The notes under the pieces: generated by a model
The model's database searches: none
What the model saw: only the letters and a program-made list of their open reading frames with translations
Told to the model about the DNA's origin: nothing
Shown: positions 6,848 to 28,874 of the stretch, piece after piece
Numbering within the stretch: position 1 is the stretch's first letter
Layout: each line of letters starts with the position of its first letter
From: a virus
IMG/VR virus record: IMGVR_UViG_3300003885_000051
Span: 1-33,782 of that record
DNA: 33,782 bases
Direction: 5' to 3' (one strand)
Program-made: the position numbers and the translations under genes

Positions 6848-8226
6848 TAGTAATTGGGTACCATATTGTTTCCGACGTTCAACTTAGTTGACCCGGATGA
6901 TTTCGATTTAATCGATTTAATTACGCCCTGTGGTGCGTTTAGATTTACATCTACTGTTGAGCTTGATTTGCTGTTTAAGCTACTATCAATCGTAGAGTTT
7001 TTAACTGTGCTATTATTTTCCGCGCTCACTCCATTAAAGAGATCTATGATTCCACCGATTACGATTCTCGGTATCGTATTTAAAAAGTCAATATTCTCAA
7101 ATACGATAGCAGCAGCGTCAACGGTTTTAGATGCTGCAGGTTCTATTTTGTTAAAGGATTCTATAGCTTTAGCCCCGATCACAGATCCAAGCCTGCTCGA
7201 TTTTTTGTTAAATGTGTTAAGTCTGATATTTGCCTGATCTTGCGCAACAGTCGTACCTTTTAATTTTTTCTCGAAATGTGTCAACATATTAATATTATTT
7301 AGTATAGAAAAACCGACTTTAGCGTGTTCCTCGCCAAATATTTTAGCGGCTAGTTGAGCTTTTTTCTGTGGGGTATCCATATTCTCAAGGGCTGTTTTTA
7401 TTTTCATAAAGCTACCCTCTAAACCGAGCTTGTTAAAATCAATACCTGCTCTTTGCAGTCTTCCAAGCATGGCGTTTAACGCCGTACCAGCCTGAGATCC
7501 TTTAATACCACCAAGTGCAACCGTTTGTATTGCCGCGTTTAATTGGTTAAAACTTAGTCCTGCGGCTCGCGCTGCTGGACCAGCTAACAATATTGCCTCG
7601 CCAGTATCTCGTATTTCAGATGCGCCGAATTTTGATCCAGCAGCTAAGATATTAACGTACTTAGCTGCAAAGTTAGCATTTTTACCAAAGATGTTTAAGC
7701 TTTGTGCTGCTACGTTTGCAGATGCTTCAAGCTCAAGTCCTGACGCATTGCTTAATAATAGAACTTGTTCTGTTACTTTTGCTAATGCCTTAGTATCTTC
7801 AAGTAATTCAGGCTTTGCAGATGCGACTAATTTAAAAGCTGTGGCAATCTCGCTTGCAGATTTAATCGATACTTTACTTAATCTTAAGGCTTCAGTTTGT
7901 AGAAATTTAAGCTGTTTTCCGGATGCTCCGGTAATAGCCTCCAAGTCTGCCATTGAATCTTGGAATGTTGCTCCAACTTCAACCACTTTTTTAATTGCCA
8001 TTCCTGCTATCGCAACAGATGCCAAGCCTTTCAACGAACTTGCGAAACCACCTGCAGCTGCCGACATGTTCTTGAACTTTTTGTTTAGCCTGTCAGAGTC
8101 GCGACCCATTTTTCGAGAAGTTTTAGCGAACCGTGAAGCCATCTTTTTGTTAGCAACGTCAACTTTACGCCCAACTTTTGAGAACTTGTCTTGAGCTATA
8201 ATATTGTAAGTAACATTGAAAGCCAT
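6847..8226 (-). CDS. Tail tape measure protein, TP901 type
   Basis: A 459-residue tape measure protein. The TP901 core is clear: FQDSMADLEAITGASGKQL (residues 88-106), then KVSIKSASEIATAFKLVASA, AGPAARAAGLSFNQLNAA, and GIKGSQAGTALNAMLGRL. The N-terminal ~60 residues are highly basic and helical. A hydrophobic helix lies around residues 60-80. The C-terminal 70 residues are Ser/Asn-rich. It is short for a myovirus; at the commonly used 0.15 nm per residue it would set a tail near 70 nm, which is inference. The ATG overlaps the stop of the frameshifted chaperone (TAATG at 8224-8228). Confidence 0.9.
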   Translation of the reverse strand: MAFNVTYNIIAQDKFSKVGRKVDVANKKMASRFAKTSRKMGRDSDRLNKKFKNMSAAAGGFASSLKGLASVAIAGMAIKKVVEVGATFQDSMADLEAITGASGKQLKFLQTEALRLSKVSIKSASEIATAFKLVASAKPELLEDTKALAKVTEQVLLLSNASGLELEASANVAAQSLNIFGKNANFAAKYVNILAAGSKFGASEIRDTGEAILLAGPAARAAGLSFNQLNAAIQTVALGGIKGSQAGTALNAMLGRLQRAGIDFNKLGLEGSFMKIKTALENMDTPQKKAQLAAKIFGEEHAKVGFSILNNINMLTHFEKKLKGTTVAQDQANIRLNTFNKKSSRLGSVIGAKAIESFNKIEPAASKTVDAAAIVFENIDFLNTIPRIVIGGIIDLFNGVSAENNSTVKNSTIDSSLNSKSSSTVDVNLNAPQGVIKSIKSKSSGSTKLNVGNNMVPNY

Positions 8227-8803
8227 TATTTATTCTCTTTGTCAGCTATTTTCTTTACAGATGAGCATTTATTAATCAATTCAGTTAACGGCAAATTTTC
8301 AAGATAACTATAAGGCATTCCACCACCCATGTACTTAGCTGTTTTTATTAACATAATTTCTAAGTCTGCTAACTCAGAACAGACCGCAGGATAAAATTTA
8401 CAAGGTACGCCCCTAATAGCGTCTCTACATCATCTTGAGATAGTGAGTCATAAAGTGGTTTGGTTAACTTTACATCTCCATCAACTAAGCAAACGCCTGA
8501 CGTTAAAAGCTCTCTAGCACTATAAAATATTTTATTCATTTCAATTTTAGTACTTGAGTACATCATTTTTAACAGCTCACTTGCCAGTACTTTGTTGTCT
8601 ATTTTTTCGACTTTATCTGGTTCTGAATTTTCCTGAGCTTTAATATCGCTTGTTGCAACATAGAACGCCTGTTTTAATTCTGCGCAGAAATTCATATGCC
8701 GTGCGGTAGGTTCGTTTATTTGAATAAATACCGCTTCTACAGTATCACCGTTACTTGAATATTCAATTCCTTTGATTAACTCTATGTTAAATTCTTCTGA
8801 CAT
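8226..8803 (-). CDS. Tail assembly chaperone, -1 frameshift fusion form (G-GT / E+E' type)
   Basis: Inferred 192-residue product: residues 1-137 from the 0 frame, then a -1 shift on A AAT TTT, then 55 residues from the -1 frame up to the TAA at 8226-8228. The added part begins YPAVCSELADLEIMLIKTAK and ends IADKENK. It has no initiation site that would cover its whole length: the first ATG in the frame is at 8354. The downstream frame is open exactly from the slippery site to the tape measure start, the layout of lambda G-T, P2 E-E' and Mu 41. The fused T-like part is expected to bind the tape measure protein. Confidence 0.82.
8364..8399 (-). promoter_or_regulatory. Programmed -1 ribosomal frameshift signal
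   Basis: The slippery heptamer A AAT TTT lies at 8393-8399 in the chaperone reading frame (codons GTA AAT TTT). It follows the X XXY YYZ rule. After an 8-nt spacer comes a stem-loop at 8364-8384: outer stem GTCTG/CAGAC, a 2-nt bulge, then CT/AG around a 5-nt loop. The 0-frame TAG lies inside the stem-loop. Heptamer, spacing and structure agree with known -1 signals; efficiency cannot be judged from sequence. Confidence 0.8.
8369..8803 (-). CDS. Tail assembly chaperone, short (0-frame) form, Mu gp41-like
   Basis: A 144-residue protein between the tail tube and tape measure genes, the standard place of the tail assembly chaperone (lambda gpG, P2 gpE, Mu gp41). It is acidic, starts MSEEFNIELIKGIEYSSNG and ends with a short tail, ILRSVLS, that would be read only if no frameshift occurs. 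Near the end the gene carries a slippery heptamer at 8393-8399, described separately. Family function: it coats the tape measure protein and guides tail tube polymerisation; it is absent from the mature virion. Confidence 0.85.
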   Translation of the reverse strand: MSEEFNIELIKGIEYSSNGDTVEAVFIQINEPTARHMNFCAELKQAFYVATSDIKAQENSEPDKVEKIDNKVLASELLKMMYSSTKIEMNKIFYSARELLTSGVCLVDGDVKLTKPLYDSLSQDDVETLLGAYLVNFILRSVLS

Positions 8804-20929: not shown

Positions 20930-20930
20930 G

Positions 20931-21344
20931 CTACATTGTTCCTATATTCGTTCTTGTTTGGCTTTTGACCATTAAATATGTTAATCCCCAGACTAATGCG
21001 TCTAGTCTGTCGGGTGAACCGGTTGAATTCTCTGGTTCCCATTGCGTTAATTCTTCTTCAAGATCTGGCATTGCTTCTAAATGGGTTACTGAACACTGTG
21101 AATACTCATTAGTTTCATATAATGCTGCTACCGGCTCAGCTCTTGCGAATTTACCTTTACTTGCATGGACTTTAACAACTTTAACATTAGGGTCGATATT
21201 TTTAATGACATCTTCTACTAAATCGCCACCCTGATTAACTTCGGCAACTATAGCGTTTGCATTATATGCATAATAAGCGTTAACAGCTCTTTGTGCCCAT
21301 TTTTTGGTTGATTCTTTTTTAGATAGATCAGCTTGAACTACAGA
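20931..21344 (-). CDS. Large terminase, C-terminal nuclease half, in a shifted frame
   Basis: This frame has no start codon at its left part and continues the large terminase in the +1 frame. It reads ...VVQADLSKKESTKKWAQRAV, then ANAIVAEVNQGGDLVED, VHASKGKFARAEPVAALYE, LEEELTQWEP and finally SPDRLDALVWGLTY. These are the conserved C-terminal segments of large terminases, including the RNase H-like nuclease acidic residues (D-L-V, and the final D-A). The frame is closed upstream by TAG at 21345-21347. The N-terminal half ends in the 0 frame at 21328. See the finding on the split. Confidence 0.85.
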   Translation of the reverse strand, partial: SVVQADLSKKESTKKWAQRAVNAYYAYNANAIVAEVNQGGDLVEDVIKNIDPNVKVVKVHASKGKFARAEPVAALYETNEYSQCSVTHLEAMPDLEEELTQWEPENSTGSPDRLDALVWGLTYLMVKSQTRTNIGTM

Positions 21345-22314
21345 CTACTATTCCACACGTATCGCTATTTTTGTTGTTTGATACAATCGGATCAACTGCA
21401 ATAACTGTTCTGACAATCTCTCCGTACGGTTTATCGCGGGCATCCTTGATCATTTTATCAGACCAAAGCGCGCCTTCTGCCGCTACTCTGTCTTTGCCAT
21501 CCCAAATATTGTTGTATTTCGATACTGGCCACATTTTTTTATTTCTGAGCCTTTTTTTCTCAAGGACTTCAGGAAACCAAAAATTATCTGTGTAATGCAT
21601 CTGAATTATCATGATTGTATCATCTTCATAATATCGATGTTTTTTTAGCTCTTTTTCGTAAGGCTTCAAATGTTCGACGCTAATTGGGTCGGTTACTTTA
21701 CCTCTGTTTAACGTATACCAGATTTCTGACCCTTTCTTTCTGGCGGTTGGTTCGATTATCTCAAGTGATTTTTCGCTAATTACCTCGGCTTCTTCTATCC
21801 AGAAATCATCGAAGTCATCCATTGACTTAATGCCGGTTGGGTTACGTGCTATCCCTCGATATTTAACTGATCCACCATTTTCATGTAAAATTCGTTTTTC
21901 TTGTATCTCGAATCCGTAAAAGTTTAATTCTCGTATTTTCTTGGAAATTAAGGAATGTACTGAATCCTCTATTGTTGTCTGGAATTCTCTGAACGCGCCT
22001 ACTTTATGGCCGTAGTCTTTGACTCTGGCTGACATTATTGTTGAGACTGTTTCACTCTTGCTTGACCCTCGTCCACCGTCCAATATCTTAATAGGCTTTG
22101 GTATTATCAAAGCCCGTTCTGCTACTTCGGGTATATTGACGTCCGGTACCATATCAACTTCTACGAACTCACCATCCTGGTCTTGCCAGCATCGAACTAA
22201 TTTACCGGTTTTAGACACTATCCCATAAACAGTCATTCGCTTTGACTTTCGACGTTGCTGCTCAATTACCGCTGCCGCTTTCATTTCTAACTCTTGTCTA
22301 GCTGCTGATGGCAT
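21328..22314 (-). CDS. Large terminase, N-terminal ATPase half (frame ends early)
   Basis: A 328-residue product with a ~70-residue N-terminal extension before the motor. Walker A is GGRGSSKS (residues 80-87) and the Walker B-like motif is DDFWIEEAE (169-177). The start of the nuclease domain, AVDPIVSNNKNSDTCGIVV (306-324), is present with D308, but the frame then ends (CSSS, stop). The rest of the nuclease domain is in the +1 frame at 20931-21344. A full protein would be about 460 residues. It packages DNA into proheads through the portal and cuts the concatemer. The gene overlaps the small terminase by 17 nt. Confidence 0.88.
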   Translation of the reverse strand: MPSAARQELEMKAAAVIEQQRRKSKRMTVYGIVSKTGKLVRCWQDQDGEFVEVDMVPDVNIPEVAERALIIPKPIKILDGGRGSSKSETVSTIMSARVKDYGHKVGAFREFQTTIEDSVHSLISKKIRELNFYGFEIQEKRILHENGGSVKYRGIARNPTGIKSMDDFDDFWIEEAEVISEKSLEIIEPTARKKGSEIWYTLNRGKVTDPISVEHLKPYEKELKKHRYYEDDTIMIIQMHYTDNFWFPEVLEKKRLRNKKMWPVSKYNNIWDGKDRVAAEGALWSDKMIKDARDKPYGEIVRTVIAVDPIVSNNKNSDTCGIVVCSSS

Positions 22315-23493: not shown

Positions 23494-23841
23494 TTAATCA
23501 GGTACTACAGTAATTATTACTATTCCTGAAATTTCTTGTGATGGAATTGAATTTGTTAATATTGTTAATTTCACGCTATACGGGCTGTCAGCAACTACTC
23601 CGCTTGTATGTGAGAATATTACTGCCTGGCCTGCTGGTACCGTTTTATTTCCGATGATTAACTCAGTTAAGCTTATCGATATGTTGTTGATTACTAAGTC
23701 ATTTGTAACTTGTTCTTGAACGATCGGATTGCCCGTTATTATCTCATTAATGTCAAGTTGACCGGCGAACGAAACAGCAGAGTTTCGCTTGCCGCTGACC
23801 GTTCTGACCGGTCTTTCAGGTGCAGTACTTATTACAGGCAT
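23494..23841 (-). CDS. Probable fibre-tail adaptor-type protein (phiJL001 Gp77-like pattern)
   Basis: A 115-residue beta-rich protein. The pattern of an N-terminal segment with Pro/Arg (STAPERPVRTV), a central ISLTELIIGNKTVPAGQAVI and a C-terminal SPYSVKLTILTNSIPSQEI resembles small phage proteins proposed to link fibres to the tail, of the Gp77 type. This is a recalled resemblance, not a search result. Its stop is followed after a short gap by the membrane-anchored gene. The start overlaps the 143-residue gene by 1 nt (TAATG-like). Confidence 0.5.
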   Translation of the reverse strand: MPVISTAPERPVRTVSGKRNSAVSFAGQLDINEIITGNPIVQEQVTNDLVINNISISLTELIIGNKTVPAGQAVIFSHTSGVVADSPYSVKLTILTNSIPSQEISGIVIITVVPD

Positions 23842-24272
23842 TATGCAAACGTCAAACTAAATGCATCAACCGGAAATGTGGGGTCTGAACCTATATTTAT
23901 CGGTTTAGGAATTAACAAAGCTCCGTGAAAATACATATTACCACCGGTTATAGCTGACATAATTTTGTAATGCGTTACTGTTAACCAGTCTCCGGTCGGT
24001 ACCGGGTATACAATTTGAACAGCGTTTAAAAATTGTCCTGATGTTCCAGAGCTTGGACCAGTCGTGTTTCCGTGTGTGCCCTTCCAATTCGTATCTGAAG
24101 CTGGTAAGTTTACCCGCGCATAACTACCGCCGGCAACTTCCGTACCACCGCCTGCATCCGTTGGAGCTGATGTAAATAAAGCGATGTATAAATCGGTTAG
24201 TTTTGGTAATGGCGTTGATCTTATAAGATGATCGCCTACCGCGTTTTCCAGAAAATCTGACAGTGCAGCCAT
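23841..24272 (-). CDS. Conserved phage structural protein of the fibre region
   Basis: A 143-residue protein beginning AALSDFLENAVGDHLIRSTP and continuing LTDLYIALFTSAPTDAGGGT, then EVAGGSYARV. This N-terminal pattern (LSDYLEN..., VYVGLFTAAPTDAGGGTEV) is widespread in phages next to fibre genes, where it is called a tail fibre or minor virion protein. The exact role is not known to me. It would be virion-associated. The central part contains NAVQIVYPVPTGDWLTVTHY, also typical. Confidence 0.65.
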   Translation of the reverse strand: MAALSDFLENAVGDHLIRSTPLPKLTDLYIALFTSAPTDAGGGTEVAGGSYARVNLPASDTNWKGTHGNTTGPSSGTSGQFLNAVQIVYPVPTGDWLTVTHYKIMSAITGGNMYFHGALLIPKPINIGSDPTFPVDAFSLTFA

Positions 24273-24287
24273 GTTTAATACTCCTTA

Positions 24288-24965
24288 CTATATTGTGTAA
24301 TGAAATCGGTTATTTGGTAGTGTAAATTGTGACGCTGAAATTCCTCTTATCGGAGCAACTTCTTTTACGTTAATAAAAACATTGCTTGTTACTGTTGCTA
24401 TATCAGAAACCCCTAATACAAGAAACGCTTTTAACTTAACATTGTCTTGTACTGAAATATTGCTATCTACACTGAATTTGTCGTTAGTTTTTAAACTGAC
24501 TAAGCTTGTTACTGTAGCTATAGCTCTTGCGTCTAAATCATTACCTACCGCCAACCCTATGCTACTTGTAGCTGAAATCAACCCTGACGCGCTTAGGTTT
24601 ACTTTTTCACTTAATGCGGCCTTCCCAAATACTGTCGCAAAATCTAGAACCGCCATTAATCGTCTATCTGATAAATCGGCTTGAATTGTTGCGCTTATTG
24701 TATCTGTTACGTTAAATGGTGCTTTTACGTTTAATGCTGCACTTGATATTACTGTTGCATTTGCCACAACATTTAATGCATTTCCGACCGAAAGCCCGAC
24801 GCTGCTTGTTGCGCTTGATAGTCCGGACACTGCTAACGAAATCGGTACAAATATCTCAACATTGCCCGTTACGCTAATATTATCATCAACCGCTAATGTT
24901 GAATCTATGGCTGTAGTTGGTATTGCTGGTCTTGAAAACCCGCTTAATCCTAGTCGAGTGGGCAT
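24288..24965 (-). CDS. Fibre-region protein of nine 20-residue repeats
   Basis: A 225-residue protein. After a 20-residue head (MPTRLGLSGFSRP...) residues 21-200 are nine consecutive 20-residue units without any insertion or deletion. A unit has a hydrophobic residue at position 4 (L/F/M) and a small one at 6 (V/A). Positions 10-12 read I-S-A/V or A-T-V, and 16 and 18 are hydrophobic. The last 25 residues (RGISASQFTLPNNRF...) are distinct. No Cys, Trp or Tyr occurs in the repeats. This suggests a beta-solenoid or extended fibrous rod, probably part of the fibre apparatus. I do not know a named family. Confidence 0.7.
   Translation of the reverse strand: MPTRLGLSGFSRPAIPTTAIDSTLAVDDNISVTGNVEIFVPISLAVSGLSSATSSVGLSVGNALNVVANATVISSAALNVKAPFNVTDTISATIQADLSDRRLMAVLDFATVFGKAALSEKVNLSASGLISATSSIGLAVGNDLDARAIATVTSLVSLKTNDKFSVDSNISVQDNVKLKAFLVLGVSDIATVTSNVFINVKEVAPIRGISASQFTLPNNRFHYTI
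24366..24905 (-). repeat. Nine tandem 60-bp coding repeats (diverged)
   Basis: The repeat region of the 225-residue protein: nine 60-bp units, diverged at DNA level but in perfect register as protein. From unit 2 onward I-S-type (S-S in unit 2) and A-T-V-type units alternate, giving a 40-residue super-repeat, and units 2-3 resemble units 6-7 (SGLSSATSSVGLSVGN versus SGLISATSSIGLAVGN). Confidence 0.75.
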
Positions 24966-24966
24966 T

Positions 24967-26124
24967 TTAGACTATCACAAATCTGTTTGTAGCAACCGGT
25001 ATTGACGTTAATGCTTTTATAGTTAAAGTGCCATTAGTATTTCCTAATATTTCTTTAGCTTCGTTAATAGCGGGTCCAGACTTAAATATAATCCAGCGAT
25101 CTTTTAATGAATTTGATGTAGCTGTTAAATTTGTAGGTATTACTGTCGAAGTTGGAATTCCGGTGCATGATCCAAAAACAACAGATTCAGTCGATTCTTG
25201 CAAATTTATGGCAGATTGATTGTTGTTATTAATGGCGCTTATGTTCGAGTCCATTCTACCACCTACCAACCCTATTGGTATACGGGATTGTATGTTTGAA
25301 GTGCCTGCCGGTAAATTTACAGCATCTAATTCAGATAATCTTAATTCTGTATTGATTGCGGCAGCGTCATCTAATCTTTTGATGGCTCCGGTGTAAGCTA
25401 ATGATAATGTTAAAATATCATTAAGCGCAATAACTCCGCTTGTTTCGACAAAAGTAACCGGTATCACCATCCACGTCGAATTATCTGTTATTGCTGCACT
25501 TACTATGAAATCTATAAAATTTAACCCATCTCCGTTTATTTGAAATGATACTGTATCACCTATCTCGAGATTTGTTATTGATATTGTTTCATTAGATCCA
25601 TTTACGCTGATTTGACTAATGTATAAATTTGTAATGTTTGCTAGTACTAGATTATCACCTTTAACTTTTCCTGCGCCTGGGTCTGTCGCTGTTACCGAAG
25701 TATCCCACTGGAATAAATTATTAACTGGAAAATCTTGTAATTCTGAAACTATTTTTGTATCAGTAACAAGAGAATCATTTACAGTTAACGCCCCTGTTAA
25801 AACAAAAACTAATCCAACCGTTTTTCCGTTTGTTTCTGCTGCGCTTATGTCAAACGCCCACTGTCCATTGCCTTTTGAAATTGGCGTAACATCTGCGATA
25901 GCTGCTTGATTACCGTTGTCAAGAGTATAGTAGCCAACTGGAATTCCGGTATTTACATCACTACCGTCGCTTGAGTTTCGCATGTGGAACTTATACCCGG
26001 CTATAGCTGTGTTTCTTTTATACCCCATTTGATTAACCTTATTTAATTTATCTATAAGAAATTTTCTTGCGAGAACATTAACGCCATAAACGCCTGTTCC
26101 GTACGCTTCGACTCCGTAACTCAT
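24967..26124 (-). CDS. Fibre-type virion protein
   Basis: A 385-residue beta-rich protein. The N-terminus MSYGVEAYGTGVYG is a Gly/Tyr-rich peptide common in phage proteins of fibre regions. The middle (about 100-250) has Ser/Thr-rich beta segments. At 275-305, LPAGTSNIQSRIPIGLVGGR and MDSNISAI form a pattern also familiar from phage tail and fibre proteins. It is transcribed after a separate fibre gene and before the 20-residue-repeat gene. Probable role: a shaft or joining part of a side fibre. Low sequence conservation makes the exact role uncertain. Confidence 0.6.
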   Translation of the reverse strand: MSYGVEAYGTGVYGVNVLARKFLIDKLNKVNQMGYKRNTAIAGYKFHMRNSSDGSDVNTGIPVGYYTLDNGNQAAIADVTPISKGNGQWAFDISAAETNGKTVGLVFVLTGALTVNDSLVTDTKIVSELQDFPVNNLFQWDTSVTATDPGAGKVKGDNLVLANITNLYISQISVNGSNETISITNLEIGDTVSFQINGDGLNFIDFIVSAAITDNSTWMVIPVTFVETSGVIALNDILTLSLAYTGAIKRLDDAAAINTELRLSELDAVNLPAGTSNIQSRIPIGLVGGRMDSNISAINNNNQSAINLQESTESVVFGSCTGIPTSTVIPTNLTATSNSLKDRWIIFKSGPAINEAKEILGNTNGTLTIKALTSIPVATNRFVIV

Positions 26125-26981: not shown

Positions 26982-28874
26982 TTATTTCCTGAAATTACAG
27001 CCACTATTCAGACTGTATTTGTTATTTATTATACCACTTTTCATTCTTGCTATTTGAATATTAAGTGAAAACTGATATGCACCCATATCTGGGTTACTGC
27101 CTCTGCTTTTATTATTAAAATCAGTTTGGCTAGATAATGTAGGATGACCTAATCCGATTGCGGGTGAGCCAGCTTGCAAACTTAAATCAGGTGTTATTGG
27201 GTTAGCGTTTGCAGGATCAACATATAACGGGTCTTGACCTTCAATTGAATTAACGTCAAATCTATTACCGCTGGCTGTTTGCCATGCTGCTAGATTTCCG
27301 CGTGTAGATTCCCAGTTAAATTGAGCTGCATTTGGCGCATAAGCTAAATTATTATCGATGTTTGCGTATGCATTGTTATCAGTTATAGTCAGAACGCATT
27401 GAAACATATCAAAATTACTAGCTCCCGTATAATGCGCTATGTTTGATACGCAATTAAATCCGGTACCGAATTCTAGTCTAAATGCTCTACGTAAATTACT
27501 ACCGAATAATGAACAATTTTTAATTGATATATTTTGGTTTTCTCGGCCTTGTGGGCCCGCTATTCCTGCCGCCCTGCATTCAATAGTAGCAACACTTGTG
27601 AATGCAGTTTGATTATTAATGATAACAATATTTTCGATTGTTCCACCGACCCATCCGGCAAGATCAATATCTCTATTGCCAGTGTTTATTATTTTTAATC
27701 TGCGTAATTTTGTATTAACATATTCTTCTGCGTAATCAGTATAGCCCGGTGCAATTGACATTCCCCACGAACCGCTTGTGCATTTTCCAATATCTTCATA
27801 AATCAAAGTATCTTCTACTGTTAAATTATGCGTGACTCCGTGTGTTGAAAATGATGAACCTGCAGCTTCTCCTGCAGCGTTTAAAGCTGATTGATACAAA
27901 TTGCAAAACTTAACAGTTGTATCAATCATGTCAGCTCTATTGCTAAAGTAGATATTGTGATTAAATTGATTACTGCCGTTTCCATTATTATGACCATTGT
28001 TGATAAATATAACATTATCAAAAACAGAATTTGAAAACATACCTAAAACACCTTGCCCCCAGTTGTTTTGTATTGTGCAATTTTTTACGTTGATATATGT
28101 TTGTGGGCCTAAATCACCGTTTGGGTTTATTCCTATTCTATATCCATCGATTATTAAATTTTCAAATAGAAATGTGTCTCGTGTGTTTGAAGCTAAAAAG
28201 AAACAGCCTGGTACGCCTAACCCTGGTGTTCCTGTAAATTTGTAGCTGATATCTAAGAACTGTACGCCTTCAAGATGCGCGCCGTTATCGAAAGTATGCT
28301 GTCTGTTAGAATTTGCACCATTATCAGTATAAGTACAATATGGTTTTGCATCAATAGCGGGTGCGTTTGCTCCTGTTTCAATATATTCTCTTACTGTAAT
28401 TAATGCACCATCGAATCTTAATTTATCGTTAGTTGTTGCGCTTGCTGCAGAACCCGTATTTTCTGCCCACGATACTGTGAATGGGCCAACATCACTGACC
28501 GCTGTTAATTGTACGTAGCCGTTGAACTCTGCTTCGTTTGCACCAATAAATGTTACAAAGTCATTGGCTTCTAAATTCGTGCGCTTGCTTAATGTCGCTG
28601 TTAGAGTAGTTCCTGAACGTGTTATGCTTGTTACTACAGAATGAGAATTTAAGTTTGTCATTCTTGCAAACGGGCCTTGCGTCCAAGCGTAACCTCTTGC
28701 AAAATATAAATTTGTTCCGGCTGGTAATGAATTCCACATCGTAGAAACTACGTTTTGATAGGTGCGCTTTGCAGTTGCAGGCGTGAACCCGTCATTTAAA
28801 TCATTACCCGGCGTTGTTCCTGCGCTGGCTCCCGCCTCAGTATCCCTAAAATAATAAGGTTGAGCTGTACTCAC
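26982..28874 (-). CDS. Tailspike, right-handed parallel beta-helix (putative depolymerase)
   Basis: A 630-residue protein. After an N-terminal part (residues 1-75, PYYFRDTEAGASAGTTPGND) a beta module (about 80-155: SITRSGTTLTATLSK, GANEAEFNGYVQL) is inserted. Residues about 180-530 are beta-helix rungs rich in N/I/V with recurring I-x-N-C and I-I-x-N-N stacks (INVKNCTIQNNWGQGV, NISIKNCSLFGS). The end, PDLSLQAGSPAIGLGHPTLS followed by NPDMGAYQF, is the classic end of pectate-lyase-like helices. Such spikes bind and often cut surface polysaccharide. Catalytic residues cannot be named from sequence alone. Its ATG overlaps the stop of the coiled-coil gene by 1 nt. Confidence 0.8.
   Translation of the reverse strand: MSTAQPYYFRDTEAGASAGTTPGNDLNDGFTPATAKRTYQNVVSTMWNSLPAGTNLYFARGYAWTQGPFARMTNLNSHSVVTSITRSGTTLTATLSKRTNLEANDFVTFIGANEAEFNGYVQLTAVSDVGPFTVSWAENTGSAASATTNDKLRFDGALITVREYIETGANAPAIDAKPYCTYTDNGANSNRQHTFDNGAHLEGVQFLDISYKFTGTPGLGVPGCFFLASNTRDTFLFENLIIDGYRIGINPNGDLGPQTYINVKNCTIQNNWGQGVLGMFSNSVFDNVIFINNGHNNGNGSNQFNHNIYFSNRADMIDTTVKFCNLYQSALNAAGEAAGSSFSTHGVTHNLTVEDTLIYEDIGKCTSGSWGMSIAPGYTDYAEEYVNTKLRRLKIINTGNRDIDLAGWVGGTIENIVIINNQTAFTSVATIECRAAGIAGPQGRENQNISIKNCSLFGSNLRRAFRLEFGTGFNCVSNIAHYTGASNFDMFQCVLTITDNNAYANIDNNLAYAPNAAQFNWESTRGNLAAWQTASGNRFDVNSIEGQDPLYVDPANANPITPDLSLQAGSPAIGLGHPTLSSQTDFNNKSRGSNPDMGAYQFSLNIQIARMKSGIINNKYSLNSGCNFRK

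Follow-up and report, generated by a model that had tools for sequence, protein, structure and literature searches.

A protein of nine exact 20-residue units beside a Gp80 gene in a viral tail-fibre block, a candidate beta-solenoid spacer

The window, by which we mean the whole stretch of DNA analysed, is a 33.8-kb virus record (33,782 nucleotides). Reading its ORFs by eye, we found tail sheath, tape measure and baseplate genes, and the phage thus looks contractile-tailed; the terminase and portal were confirmed by Pfam. The minus-strand order is 630-aa protein, 283-aa protein, 385-aa fibre protein, repeat protein, Gp80, 115-aa protein, small genes and terminase. The features around the repeat protein are as follows.

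24967..26124, minus strand: 385-aa fibre protein; its N-terminal domain matches the fibre of contig stretch L037, and there is a weak match to the HTVC010P putative tail fibre
24288..24965, minus strand: repeat-protein gene, 225 aa (N-terminal 20 aa, nine 20-aa units, C-terminal 25 aa)
24906..24965, minus strand: N-terminal segment MPTRLGLSGFSRPAIPTTAI, with a TRLGLxGxxR likeness to the starts of TRLGLYGGxRxxYGSF proteins
24366..24905, minus strand: nine 20-residue units, residues 21-200, no indel
24288..24365, minus strand: C-terminal 25 aa KEVAPIRGISASQFTLPNNRFHYTI plus stop, described from sequence only
23841..24272, minus strand: Gp80 homologue (podophage GP4 fibre I), 143 aa, Pfam PF23140 (E 3.6e-36)
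23494..23841, minus strand: 115-aa beta-rich small protein, overlapping the end of the Gp80 gene in the same gene run

The ATG of the repeat-protein gene lies one base past the TAA of the 385-aa gene, a spacing as in tightly coupled phage operons, and the Gp80 gene is 15 bases away on the other side. The Gp80 homologue also matched PHROG 240 (E 3.4e-22) and PDB 8jou chain a (E 1.1e-12). A fibre on L037 (L037:7025-9070) is 56% identical over 82 aa to the N-terminal domain of the 385-aa protein, and the gene that follows it encodes a protein that starts TRLGLYGGxRxxYG. The placement of the repeat protein in a fibre block by the initial annotation was therefore borne out, as the gene is flanked by a Gp80/GP4 fibre I homologue and by a fibre gene whose N-terminal domain is shared. 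Further along the block, the 630-aa protein (26982-28874, minus strand) appears parallel beta-helix-like by eye, with N-rich rungs, and had no clear family match in Pfam. The large terminase (20930-22314, minus strand) is broken in frame: a 328-aa ORF ends at 21328 and terminase-like sequence goes on in another frame to ~20930. In the relatives L002 and L003 this gene is an intact ORF of 540-555 aa; either an indel from assembly or a genuine frame shift may explain the break in the window.

The repeat protein starts MPTRLGLSGFSRP, and its residues 21-200 (24366-24905) divide gap-free into nine units of exactly 20 residues, as had been described. Self-similarity by mean BLOSUM62 score reached z=6.1 at lag 20, z=6.5 at lag 40 and z=7.5 at lag 80; the maximum was attained by 0 of 3000 shuffles, the largest shuffle value being 4.7. 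Similarly, the column score over the units was 507, vs -369 +/- 54 for within-unit shuffles (~16 sd above). Hydrophobic residues occupy columns 4 and 6, 10 and 12, and 16, 18 and, less strictly, 20; the residues that separate them are polar or small, and the pattern suggests three short strands per unit. On all units position 4 is L, F or M and position 6 is V or A, in agreement with the initial annotation. The conserved positions are the hydrophobic ones, as would be expected of a structural core.

The finer patterns proposed within the array fared less well. The residues at positions 10-12 of units 2-9 are those listed for an alternation of I-S-A/V and A-T-V units, but the alternation itself gave p=0.062 when unit order was permuted; among eight related proteins, a two-unit alternation had p < 0.05 in one only (p 0.034). 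The resemblance of units 2-3 to units 6-7, taken as a hint of block duplication, holds at 12/20 and 9/20 identities and is weak (four-unit lag, p=0.024). At the DNA level, units 2 and 6 are identical at only 29/60 bases and use the same codon at 3/12 shared residues. Since identical residues are mostly encoded by different codons, any duplication is old, as are the units themselves. Tandem Repeats Finder detected no DNA-level array at the repeat block.

Consistent with the claim that the pattern belongs to no named family, the protein had no match in Pfam, PHROG or PDB sequences, and direct searches of phages, IMG/VR and GTDB returned no relatives. Two weak tblastn matches were set aside: one is not a repeat protein, and the other is antisense in a polymerase/ligase region. 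The sole unit-profile match in the PDB, to sigma-C capsid protein (2jjl), was not significant (E 0.45). We also considered a pentapeptide repeat, which has 20 residues per coil, and rejected it as the hydrophobic columns do not fall in 5-residue steps and there is no Pfam match. In IMG/VR, neither the 385-aa fibre protein nor Gp80 retrieved anything; scans with the terminase and portal found relatives, and none of their loci contained a period-20 protein. Structure prediction of the window protein by AF2 from its single sequence had a pLDDT of 29.7 and carried no information. Non-overlapping pieces of the repeat block gave no end-to-end alignment and hence were not used as an AF2 alignment.

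A 20-residue-period scan over all ORFs of the fetched loci first flagged proteins adjacent to Gp80 in other phages. A period of 20 marks the gene directly after Gp80 in 8 of 14 loci, vs 5 of 149 other genes (Fisher 3e-7); period-20 was scored as z20 >= 2.8 and best of lags 18-22, a threshold set after the first examples had been seen, so the p-value is indicative. The fraction is slightly conservative because BcepMigl gp57, annotated directly after Gp80, was not counted as adjacent by our ORF parsing. Examples include MW202462, MW202879, MEP401/402 and C72C1. BcepMigl gp57 itself (annotated virion associated) has period 20 with z 4.6 over its repeat part. In the myophage Lietuvens (Sporosarcina phage), ORF27 (L010:8403-9326) lies directly after Gp80; its first 130 aa have the 20-residue period (z 3.8) and are joined to a Mu gp48-like baseplate domain, by sequence a direct link of such a segment to the tail. 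Podophages of the L107/L130 type have the order adaptor, Gp80, repeat protein and next tail protein. The repeat gene of the window precedes Gp80, whereas elsewhere it follows. Pfam Gp80 (PF23140), GP4 fibre I, has a repeat-protein gene as its neighbour both here and in many phages, but is itself without 20-residue repeats. PHROG 19041 (virion structural protein; BcepMigl gp57, Itty13) also stands directly after Gp80, and its BcepMigl member has period 20; however, its unit sequence differs, it has fewer clear units, and the window protein does not match it. Phage cta39025 (L060:5466-6647 and 7455-8507) encodes, behind a Gp80 fusion, a period-20 protein of the pattern LAASAxxxSSVxVxLxV, and not far from it another protein whose period is 26 residues (z 5.0). 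On L016, a low-complexity tract of alternating AI/AR-like repeats (L016:9126-9434) lies just upstream of the portal gene.

With a profile built from three of the Gp80-adjacent period-20 proteins, we found a related 20-residue family (GSASITATATVTA..) on 268 IMG/VR viral contigs. Its consensus is GSASITATATVTAxAxR, and Venkman gp51, ctXG6705 and the MW202462 'serine-rich adhesin' belong to it; we refer to it as the ASITATATVTA family. Across 75 complete proteins (79 loci kept) the number of units is 5, 8, 9, 10 or 12, and 534 of 605 steps between units measure exactly 20 residues, the others 21 or 22. In the AF2 model of the member on L123, made with 28 sequences, unit positions 4-6, 9-14 and 17-20 form strands, a pattern that returns at each 20-residue step (pTM 0.48; mean pLDDT 54, ~55-74 over the repeat block). 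The model, of modest confidence, is a parallel beta-solenoid with one coil per unit. Foldseek alone gave no confident PDB match to the model (best E 0.41). A second look with VIA-align, which covered the folds listed among the weak Foldseek PDB matches, put the model with parallel beta-helices of the right-handed type, the best alignment reaching Z 18.5 over 244 residues at rmsd 3.4. The best PDB sequence match of the family profile is 4opw (E 0.013, weak), and one Gp80-adjacent protein weakly matches Pfam DUF2807. Tapirin, WceF tailspike-like, inulin lyase and the DUF2807-type 4opw/3ljy, all right-handed parallel beta-helix proteins, have stacked three-strand coils like those of the model, but they are enzymes or adhesins with less uniform coil length, and they show no sequence relation to it. 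Taken together, the model and the spacings suggest that in the ASITATATVTA family one unit is probably one coil and that the number changes by whole coils.

The window protein shares with this family a period of exactly 20 aa, a count of about 9-10 units, a short N-terminal segment that may serve as an anchor, a short tail, and a place in the fibre/tail block with a Gp80 link; variation by whole units is a feature of the family. In contrast, family members end in a C-terminal W-rich repeat tail, and the window tail KEVAPIRGISASQFTLPNNRFHYTI has no Trp. The window units did not match the family HMM. Profile-profile comparison gave p=0.039, or 0.012 with a larger set, vs p<=0.0003 for members against the rest, and the hydrophobicity-profile correlation was not significant (p=0.22). 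Significant sequence similarity of the window units to the family is thus not established. Given the missing HMM match, the marginal profile scores, the p of 0.22 and the lack of a W-rich tail, the window protein is family-like by architecture and locus and is not filed as a member. Two expectations of the initial annotation are accordingly qualified: unit number does vary in the ASITATATVTA family, at a spacing that is nearly always exactly 20, but the kinship of the window protein to that family is not established, and one coil per 20-residue unit is favoured by analogy with the modelled family, but not by the window protein's own model.

The N-terminus offers a further comparison. Motif proteins aside, the window N-terminus was the top match to the TRLGLYGG motif among ~3,600 N-termini, with the first half of the motif only (score 26 vs ~65). 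The full TRLGLYGGxRxxYGSF motif occurs on 23 IMG/VR contig stretches, in proteins that usually follow a fibre-like gene, often precede terminase genes and have completely different bodies. These proteins resemble that of the window in the slot after a fibre gene and in the TRLGLxGxxR start, but their bodies are unrelated and not period-20, and the window lacks the second half of the motif; among same-slot TRLGLYGG proteins (L024-L046) we detected no 20-residue period. The extended motif TRLGLYGGxRxxYGSFAGK is present in three copies in L043 (L043:13578-13904) and in two copies each in L042 (L042:1428-1652) and L030 (L030:8482-8976). N-termini of the ASITATATVTA family scored a z of only about 3 against the motif. 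Their own anchor reads FGISxFSQxPFSSL, and by eye GLSGFSRPAI of the window resembles GLSAFSQSPY. We propose that the N-terminal segment is an anchor.

We therefore favour, at a probability of roughly 0.55, the reading that the repeat protein is a minor protein of the tail-fibre complex in which an anchor at the N-terminus is followed by a solenoid rod of nine coils and a short tail, and that it serves as a spacer. The periodicity, the gene neighbourhood, the link of period-20 proteins to Gp80 and the whole-unit variation of the analogous family are observed. Because its own AF2 model was uninformative, its fold is assigned by analogy with the modelled family, and we infer the anchoring and spacer role. 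In what looks like a contractile-tailed phage, the N-terminal segment would attach to a partner, most likely the adjacent Gp80 (fibre I-like) or the preceding fibre. Each unit would supply one coil, built from about three short beta strands, and nine coils would stack into a rigid parallel beta-solenoid. Beta-solenoids usually rise 0.48 nm per coil, and the rod would be ~4 nm long. The C-terminal 25 residues, possibly a cap or docking tail, would cap or dock the far end. Coils would be gained or lost as whole 20-residue units, making the rod a spacer. In GP4, 8JOU chain g is described as a fibril that connects an adhesin with the nozzle collar (phage LSH1 paper, PMC13243795), so fibrils of an accessory kind do occur beside Gp80. 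Counting against the reading are the unestablished kinship of the window units to the modelled family, the uninformative model of the window protein, the moderate family model with its lack of a confident Foldseek match, the place of the repeat gene before Gp80, and the lack of a 20-residue period in the same-slot proteins of L024-L046.

The closest competitor, which we think unlikely, is a trimeric fibre shaft in which three copies intertwine as a triple beta-spiral or triple-stranded beta-helix and each unit contributes a single turn of the assembly. Trimers are frequent among phage fibres, the LxVxxxIxV spacing could suit a beta-spiral, and the gene sits in the fibre block. However, the family model, which is of moderate confidence, is one chain in which every 20 residues close a three-strand coil, and the 225-aa sequence shows no evident coiled-coil or trimerisation domain.

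Less probable still is a solenoid that decorates the capsid or collar and not a fibre. PHROG files the neighbouring phrog_240 ('head protein') under head and packaging, as it does phrog_19041 ('virion structural protein'), found beside Gp80 in BcepMigl and Itty13. Against this, the solved Gp80 relative is fibre I of podophage GP4 (PF23140, PDB 8jou), and the title of the GP4 structure paper names three types of tail fibres.

We hold it about as improbable, or slightly more so, that the protein is a receptor-binding adhesin whose solenoid faces or C-terminus bind the host surface, with the repeats diversifying specificity. Beta-solenoids are common in adhesins, and weak profile matches were to adhesin-like beta-helix proteins; yet neither Pfam nor PHROG revealed a binding or catalytic domain, and the conserved unit positions are hydrophobic, as for a structural core. 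Low-complexity or chance periodicity devoid of structural meaning is very improbable, as only the empty single-sequence AF2 result speaks for it and it is opposed by the unmatched lag score, the column score and the recurrence of a similar period beside Gp80 in other phages.

Returning to the spacer reading, a 20-residue architecture is common beside Gp80 and unnamed in Pfam and PHROG, and the window protein is a variant of it. A bolder extension, which we offer as a doubtful one, is that unrelated sequences occupy the accessory slot at the side of Gp80 and have arrived by convergence at the same strict 20-residue beta-solenoid coil. Insertion or deletion of whole coils would then set the length of this modular spacer, and the window protein would be an independent instance. 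Taken by itself, the window protein brings a modest gain. Proteins of period 20 occur widely among phages next to Gp80, but the labels they carry are hypothetical, adhesin and even ubiquitin ligase. Their tie to a tail-fibre locus and their likely beta-solenoid fold give annotators a handle, and the idea of a spacer becomes testable through unit number.
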